Shown here one piece after another: positions 35,816-37,781 of a stretch of 64,000 bases of DNA. Positions within the stretch are counted from its first letter, which is position 1. Each line of letters begins with the position of its first letter. The DNA comes from Ponticaulis sp. (GTDB taxonomy: Bacteria > Pseudomonadota > Alphaproteobacteria > Caulobacterales > Hyphomonadaceae). Made by a program: the position numbers and the translations under genes. The notes beneath the pieces were generated by a model that searched no databases, was not told the origin of the DNA, and saw only the letters and a list, made by a program, of their open reading frames with translations. The DNA lies in contig NZLU01000023.1 of NCBI GenBank assembly GCA_002692725.1, positions 124,001 to 188,000 of the forward strand. The letters run 5' to 3'.

Positions 35816-35936
35816 GCGTCCGAAACTTATTTCTGGCTCGGTTCGACCTGGTTGAACTCAGAACAGTCTTCAATTCTCTGGACAAATCGAGGTGATGCGC
35901 CAAGGATAGTCTCATCGGGTTATCGGGGGATTTCAG

Positions 35937-37781
35937 ATGGATTTTGAACAGGCCGGCAAAGAGCGGGTTTACCAGATCGTCAAACTGGTCGTGACGTGTG
36001 TCCTGGTCGTTGTAACAGTTGTGTGCGGCTATAAGGGCTGGCGCGAATACAATATCGATCATCTTGAATCCATGTATCGCACAATCGGCGCATTTGAATT
36101 CGATGAAATCTACCTGACAGAACCCGAAGACGACACACGTCTTTCATGGTTCGGGGAAGCCAACAAAGACAATCGCCCCGACGTGAACATCTGGCTGCAG
36201 ATTGCGAGACTGACAGGTGTCGGAACGCTGTTTGCCGCTGTAATTCTCACCTTGTCCGGATTTCTGTCTGAGAATTGGAAGCGCTTCTGGATCAAACTGC
36301 GCAAAAAGGACATTCTGATCCTTGGCTCCGGTCCGTTCACAAAAGATGCGATGGCGCTGATTGCGAACAGTCCGGACAAGAAGCTCAAGAATGTAAAACG
36401 TCGGCACAAAGTTCTGCATCTCGGCGCGAGCAGTTTCTCCTGTAGTCAGTCCTCATTTTTCCTTGGAAAATATCGCGCGACGCTACCCTGGGCTGACCCT
36501 GATCTTCCTGAAATTACCCTGAGAACGCACGCACGATCAGGTCGACATGTGCTCGTGTCGGAAGAAGAAGATTCAGAAACAATTGAACTCGCAACCAAAC
36601 TGCGTGACATGCGCAAAAAGCACGACACGTCGTCTTCATGGTCGCGCACCCTCACCATTACGGCAATTCTGAGAGATGCCCGACTGGCAGAAGATGCGAA
36701 CCTCAATTGGTCAGATGATGTTCTGAGCTTTGTGGATTCTTCCAGCCTTGCGGTCAGACGACTGCATCGACAGCATCCGCCTTTCCGTCAGGCCAAGGGG
36801 TTTGGTCATGACCGTATCAACGCATTAATCGTCGGGTTCGGCGATATGGGGAAAGCCGTTGCCGGTGATCTCGCCATGAATTGCGCTGTTGACGGCTTTC
36901 AAAAGCAGAAGATCACGGTGGTGGATCCCCATGTAAATGCGCGAACCGAGGCGCTGAAACTTCGTTCACCAGAATATAATGAATTGTTTGAACTCGAGCG
37001 ATTGCCCGGCGCATTTGGCTGGGGCGATATCCCGCCGCCTTCATCCACAAATGTGCCTGAGAAAGTCAGTGCGGTGTATGTTTGCCTGTCTGACGATACC
37101 TCGGCACTTGCAGCGCTAAGCGATGTCCGGATCTGGTTACAAAGAAGCGGTCATATTCAAGTGCCCATTTTCGTCCATTTGCGCCATGCAGCGCTGTTGA
37201 AAAAGTTCGACGACAAACAGCCAGATGAAAACGCGGCGCCGCTTTATGTGTTCGGGGACCGAACCTCCATTCTGGAGGAATCCGGATTTCTCAATCCAGA
37301 TGCCGACAAGGAAGCCAGGCGAATCCATGCGGCTTACTGCGCAGGCGTTCCTGAAGCGGAAAGATGGAAACGCGGTGAAACGGTCACTAAGAACAATGAA
37401 AGCACTGTGTCCTGGTTCGATCTCAAGCCGAAATATAAGGCCTCAACCCGCGCGGTCGTGGATCATATCCACGCCAAATTGTTTTCACTCGACAAGTTGT
37501 CTGGGGACATGGTGGAAAAATGTCCTGATTTTTCGAAAAACCCGATCGTATTGGACGAAGCCGATATGGATAATCAGGCGCGGCTGGAACATGACCGCTT
37601 CATTGCGGAACGTCGATGGGCGGGATGGCGCGCCGCAGAAACAAAAAATGCCGATCTGCTTCTCCATAACTGCTTCATTCCCTACGATCAGCTCGATGAG
37701 AAAACTCAGGGGTATGACAAGGAGATCGTCGAACGGGTGATGAAGGTGCTCAATGGCGAATACCCGAAGCCGTCGGATTAA
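35937..37781 (+). CDS. Two-TM Rossmann (TrkA-N/RCK-like) protein with C-terminal RyR domain
   Basis: 614 residues. TM segments lie near residues 16-33 and 92-108. A first Rossmann-like unit (KDILILGSGPFTKDAMALIA) and a second (INALIVGFGDMGKAVAGDLA) follow, resembling K+-channel-regulating TrkA-N/RCK domains. The C-terminal ~70 residues (LEHDRFIAERRWAGWRAA...FIPYDQLDEKTQGYDKE) fit a bacterial RyR repeat. Ion-channel or ligand sensing is inferred. GGGGGATTTCAG precedes the ATG. It overlaps the convergent isomerase gene by four bases. Confidence 0.75.
   Translation: MDFEQAGKERVYQIVKLVVTCVLVVVTVVCGYKGWREYNIDHLESMYRTIGAFEFDEIYLTEPEDDTRLSWFGEANKDNRPDVNIWLQIARLTGVGTLFAAVILTLSGFLSENWKRFWIKLRKKDILILGSGPFTKDAMALIANSPDKKLKNVKRRHKVLHLGASSFSCSQSSFFLGKYRATLPWADPDLPEITLRTHARSGRHVLVSEEEDSETIELATKLRDMRKKHDTSSSWSRTLTITAILRDARLAEDANLNWSDDVLSFVDSSSLAVRRLHRQHPPFRQAKGFGHDRINALIVGFGDMGKAVAGDLAMNCAVDGFQKQKITVVDPHVNARTEALKLRSPEYNELFELERLPGAFGWGDIPPPSSTNVPEKVSAVYVCLSDDTSALAALSDVRIWLQRSGHIQVPIFVHLRHAALLKKFDDKQPDENAAPLYVFGDRTSILEESGFLNPDADKEARRIHAAYCAGVPEAERWKRGETVTKNNESTVSWFDLKPKYKASTRAVVDHIHAKLFSLDKLSGDMVEKCPDFSKNPIVLDEADMDNQARLEHDRFIAERRWAGWRAAETKNADLLLHNCFIPYDQLDEKTQGYDKEIVERVMKVLNGEYPKPSD

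Follow-up and report, generated by a model that had tools for sequence, protein, structure and literature searches.

Within the window, the 64-kb stretch of DNA analysed here, a single intact ORF starting with ATG encodes a protein with two transmembrane (TM) segments, two Rossmann/RCK units, and a C-terminal RyR domain (Table 1). The genes around it encode an amidase, a DsbA-family protein, and a nitronate-monooxygenase-like protein.

Table 1 Features of the RCK-RyR gene and its product
Feature	Position	Strand	Basis
RCK-RyR membrane protein gene, 614 aa	35937..37781	+	ORF; homologues of like length with the same domain order
GGGGGA, ribosome-binding-site-like, 6 nt upstream of ATG	35925..35930	+	Sequence
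TM1, residues 9-36	35961..36044	+	Hydropathy; model helix 2-36
Pore-helix-like segment and loop, residues 42-59, HLESMYRTIGAFEFDEIY	36060..36113	+	Model helix 42-50; GsuK pore alignment
TM2 and cytoplasmic extension, residues 85-121	36189..36299	+	Hydropathy; model
Rossmann/RCK unit 1, residues 124-290, degenerate glycine motif	36306..36806	+	GsuK/MthK/TrkA profile matches; VIA-align
Rossmann/RCK unit 2, residues 293-457	36813..37307	+	Weak Pfam NADP-binding match; VIA-align to tandem RCK rings
RyR domain, residues 541-605	37557..37751	+	Pfam PF02026; solved RyR structures
Predicted ligand-contact codons, span	37590..37718	+	RyDEP spacing; conservation in 71 other RyR domains
Predicted contact codon H552	37590-37592	+	
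Predicted contact codon F555	37599-37601	+	
Predicted contact codon H577	37665-37667	+	
Predicted contact codon D594	37716-37718	+	

The preliminary description had read two N-terminal TM segments, two TrkA-N/RCK-like units, and a RyR-like C-terminus from the sequence, and all three elements were borne out. Hydropathy is highest over residues 9-36 and 85-112, which correspond to two TM helices also present in the structure model, and the alternative of a soluble protein found no support. The loop between them is acidic (13 D/E versus 5 K/R), and a basic stretch follows TM2. Single-sequence scans of the protein against Pfam, PADLOC, and NCBIfam gave a weak RyR match only, and no PADLOC family; PF02026 matched residues 546-605 of the protein alone with an E value of 2e-5 and 25.2 bits, below the cut-off of 27.4, and reached 27.5 bits, marginally above that cut-off, in a genome-frame search. 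A profile of 16 homologues matched solved RyR structures with an E value of 4e-32, and the profile match over the domain assigns the C-terminus to PF02026. Pfam made no TrkA_N call on the window protein itself; TrkA_N was matched by 8 of the 16 homologues, and the match of a Bacteroidales homologue scored 74 bits. The GxGxxG motif is intact in the second unit (GFGDMG). Since dozens of homologues within the order keep an identical domain order, the arrangement is more than chance. The architecture of two TM segments, tandem RCK, and RyR is real, its RCK part being established from homologues, profiles, and fold.

A structure model built from 9 sequences (pLDDT 74.8, pTM 0.70) places a short helix (residues 42-50) between TM1 (2-36) and TM2 (85-121), followed by two Rossmann units and a RyR end that is helical. 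The top VIA-align matches were the gating rings of MtDMI1 and LjCASTOR, with Z scores of 18.6 and 18.1 over ∼320 residues; GsuK gave a Z score of 15.6 covering both TM and RCK (11-464), KtrA, TrkA, and Slo1 also scored highly, and the RyR structure 3nrt gave 10.7. Foldseek agreed with VIA-align. The likeness to K+ channel and RyR folds, proposed at the outset as a check, was thereby found for both. The homologue profile matched GsuK (E value, 1.4e-17) and MthK (4.9e-13), colinear from TM1 through RCK, and the protein has the 2TM pore followed by RCK that marks RCK-gated K+ channels.

The segment at residues 42-59 occupies the position of a K+ channel P-loop and lacks TxGYG. Neither the window protein nor its aligned homologues have a TxGYG or TxGFG filter in the stretch from TM1 to TM2, and TxGYG was likewise not found in ∼50 relatives; regular-expression near-matches in the relatives were TLGLG in L063, which lies within TM1, and TIGWA in L087. 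In the profile alignment, the P-loop motif opposite the GsuK filter resembles Y-R-T-x-x-A-x-x-x-x-[DE]-x-Y. Because TxGYG is absent, the window protein is not classed as a K+ channel, and an ordinary K+ channel was rejected. Membrane-disrupting effectors are common in defence, and the loss of the filter and the divergence of the pore loop in all relatives would also suit a membrane-anchored nucleotide-binding protein that is not ion-selective, one that damages or depolarizes the membrane by oligomerizing, or acts as a scaffold, with its 2TM-RCK ancestry vestigial. We consider this improbable, however: many relatives keep both the TM1-pore helix-TM2 layout and the Y-R-T ... D/E-x-Y loop motif, which would be unexpected of a mere anchor.

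The RyR domain, which resembles the nucleotide-binding part of animal ryanodine receptors, can be compared with that of the phage protein RyDEP, for which a structure and cADPR binding were reported in 2026 and which holds an ADPR-type ligand (3'cADPR) via H75, W78, H100, and D117 (PMC13232231). In the window protein, H552, F555, H577, and D594 lie at identical offsets (+3/+25/+42). Among the 71 other RyR domains collected, His552 is matched in 71/71, position 555 is Trp in 71/71, and His577 and Asp594 are found in 67/71 and 68/71, respectively; the replacement of the adenine-stacking Trp by Phe555 is thus the sole exception among 72 RyR domains. The predicted site retains most of the residues that contact cADPR-type ligands in RyDEP. 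Phe555 is still aromatic, yet caution is called for as to the affinity of the putative ligand site. The RyR score of the window protein is among the lowest of those found. The same genome encodes a paralogue of 614 aa (L034:6479-8323, G000:C20), in which the Trp is present; its gene is divergent from a patatin-like phospholipase gene and two unnamed genes.

Small RyR-only genes, mostly encoding 116 to 160 aa and retaining the site residues, occur in 11 channel neighbourhoods of relatives. The genome of the window carries one as well, away from the window gene (L035:8709-9065, G000:C22; 118 aa). Its product matches 285 records from Salmonella, Pseudomonas, Aeromonas, and other phages, the best at 39 to 45% identity; searching phages with the window RyR domain as the query gave no match. 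Both sponges and a glycosidase are known in the phage RyR family matched by L035 (PMC13232231), and by analogy the small RyR-only protein may sequester or degrade the signal and in this way serve the host as an off-switch. That the RyR tail of the window protein should itself degrade or sponge a ligand as RyDEP does, making the whole protein a membrane-bound off-switch, seems very unlikely. The His/Asp dyad of RyDEP is conserved (H552, D594), and most of the phage homologues assayed bind without cleaving (PMC13232231), but the architecture is elaborate for such a role, which the small RyR-only neighbours fill better.

The preliminary description saw no obvious partner for the gene. This holds for the window, in whose 64 kb no TIR gene was found, and none adjoins the paralogue; it does not hold for the homologues, around which a class of TIR partners is visible. 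Partnership with the amidase or DsbA-like neighbours was rejected, because only RyR and TIR-type gene families recur around relatives. Analysis of gene neighbours in homologues, defence genes included, placed a TIR gene within ∼9 kb of the RyR gene in 18 of 47 distinct loci, often in operon-like arrangements and across three phyla. The TIR gene precedes the channel gene by 61 bp in L064 (7932-8897 and 8959-10668), lies 53 bp beyond it in L081, and closes an operon-like channel-TPR-TIR order in L068. A Bacteroidales locus (L069) carries on a single strand genes for TIR (2214), SH3-like (3795), RyR/STAND-like NTPase (4901), SLOG-like (7596), and channel (8231) proteins, and an Acidimicrobiales locus (L070) has TIR and then RyR.

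Linkage was compared with random placement given the TIR number of each genome. In low-TIR genomes (three or fewer TIRs), a TIR gene adjoins the RyR-channel gene in 9 of 12 cases (expected, 0.14; tail, 6e-16). Over all tested RyR genes, 10 of 30 are TIR-linked (expected, 1.8; tail, 3e-6), the TIR number used for some TIR-rich genomes being that of first-look candidates (scored matches, at least 14). Both tails overstate independence, because some genomes share a genus. In the TIR-rich genus g21, where the gene is widespread, the one wide neighbourhood examined (L051) shows it without a TIR neighbour.

Other arrangements were also seen. At L045:3606-10669 and L049:7752-14738, channel-RyR genes stand with genes for a GH108 lysozyme-like protein and a double-trypsin/TPR-S protein and a short RyR gene. 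At L038:3864-7697, a protein with DUF4062, NTPase, and TPR parts is encoded beside a channel-RyR/short-RyR pair that has no TIR_2 neighbour; DUF4062 is a TIR-like NADase family (PMC13174449). In L082:5581-9882, from a genome without TIR_2, a TPR protein is joined to the last part of the second RCK and to RyR, as might result from a deletion within an L068-type operon. Two homologues (L026:790-3177 and L079:7951-10479) have an added SLOG-like domain after RyR ('GITGHR' or 'GVVGHR'). An 840-aa protein (L072:7041-9563), with domain names assigned by inspection, appears to combine a RelA/SpoT synthetase, repeats, a SLOG-like part, and RyR in a single polypeptide.

RyR is present in 72 of the 299 genomes of the order (Caulobacterales in the GTDB sense, going by named relatives such as Hyphomonadaceae and Alkalicaulis). 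With related genomes counted as independent, TIR_2 is found in 71 of the 72 RyR-positive and 148 of the 227 RyR-negative genomes, with median TIR numbers of 12 and 1, respectively; the excess of TIRs in RyR-positive genomes holds within genera g2 and g3 as well (p 6e-4 and 3e-3). The window genome (G000, 3.9 Mb) has 22 TIR_2 domains in 22 places, e.g., C63:106627-109003 and C63:134158-134475, against 0 to 2 TIRs and no RyR in four genomes of the same genus, which makes it plausible that the unlinked channel serves several TIRs in trans. A single-sequence scan of genome contigs with the window protein found nothing, and an alignment-guided scan found 10 loci. No homologue was detected by a channel profile scan of viral contigs, nor of the full protein on plasmids.

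These distributions also bear on a role in ordinary physiology, in which a nucleotide-regulated channel or transporter (K+, Ca2+, or osmotic) would use RyR to sense ATP, ADP, NAD, or ADPR, with the TIR linkage secondary. Going by the titles of solved structures, the RCK channels GsuK and TrkA bind nucleotides and RyR repeats bind ATP/ADP, and the wide spread in g21, with its one TIR-free neighbourhood, would fit. We nevertheless regard such a role as unlikely, given the patchy distribution and absence from the four same-genus genomes, the TIR linkage and co-occurrence, the presence of STAND, SLOG-like, TPR-S, and TIR proteins among the partners, and the lack of a K+ filter.

The suggestion that the protein is a ligand-controlled channel or effector remains the best fit to the architecture, the RyR site residues, and the TIR neighbours of relatives, with the ligand and the channel both putative. 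On balance we favour a receptor-effector that belongs to a Thoeris-like, TIR-based system of nucleotide signalling, is gated by a TIR-made signal, and has a noncanonical RCK pore; true ion conduction is less likely than this overall reading. Its observed basis is the domain architecture, the site conservation, the TIR linkage in relatives, and the genome-level co-occurrence, and the SLOG-like and TPR-S domains at the same loci as relatives were counted in its favour. Against it stand the separation of the window gene from any TIR gene, Phe555, the low RyR score, L051, a model made from 9 sequences, and the lack of a PADLOC family and of plasmid or viral homologues.

Because relatives often adjoin TIR genes, the putative channel is probably activated by an alarm nucleotide that a TIR protein makes. 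The linkage to TIR genes, together with known TIR chemistry, suggests that such a protein would sense infection or stress and make an ADP-ribose-type signal from NAD+. The C-terminal RyR domain, judging from its conserved site residues, would bind this signal, and the tandem-RCK ring would relay the change, as its fold implies. The 2TM pore without a K+ filter might then open, so that ions leak and the infected cell stops growing. In this genome, at least one of the 22 TIR domains would serve the channel in trans.

A more specific version is tentative: a bacterial immune ion channel in which cADPR isomers made by TIR proteins are recognized by the RyR domain and an RCK ring like that of CASTOR opens a cation pore of noncanonical type. 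Host RyR-only proteins would then be the off-switches, and phage RyDEP proteins captured forms of these. To our knowledge, cADPR has long been implicated in modulation of ryanodine receptors without an accepted binding site, and the immune channel could conceivably, though doubtfully, be the prokaryotic counterpart of this long-debated link. If true, the link would become testable in a simple bacterial system, ion-channel effectors would be added to TIR immunity, and a source of phage RyR sponges would be suggested.

In the literature, with TIR systems incompletely covered, we found no such RyR-RCK/TIR system and no RyR with TrkA-N or Rossmann domains in defence; novelty relative to known TIR systems is provisional. 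GsuK and MthK share the order TM-pore helix-TM and then RCK with the window protein, but carry a K+ filter (TTLGFGD in GsuK) and no RyR domain, the reverse of the window protein on both counts. The tandem RCK gating ring is common to CASTOR/POLLUX/DMI1 and the window protein (Z ∼18 over 320 residues), and both combine it with a non-TVGYG pore (PMC6697748 for CASTOR); CASTOR as described lacks a RyR domain, has a ring that binds Ca2+, and shares ∼13% sequence identity with the window protein, and the likeness is one of working alike, with homology claimed only at the level of the RCK superfamily. RyDEP and RyR Repeat12 belong to PF02026 and have the His/His/Asp site with the same spacing as the window protein, although RyDEP, a viral glycosidase or sponge, is soluble and has Trp, whereas the window RyR forms part of a membrane RCK protein and has Phe. 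As in Thoeris, a TIR protein is encoded in the same locus for many relatives, though not for the window gene, and the effector is predicted to carry a domain for an ADPR-type ligand. ThsA-type receptors as described (PMC11204291) use SLOG or Macro domains, whereas the ligand domain here is a RyR on an RCK channel-like protein.
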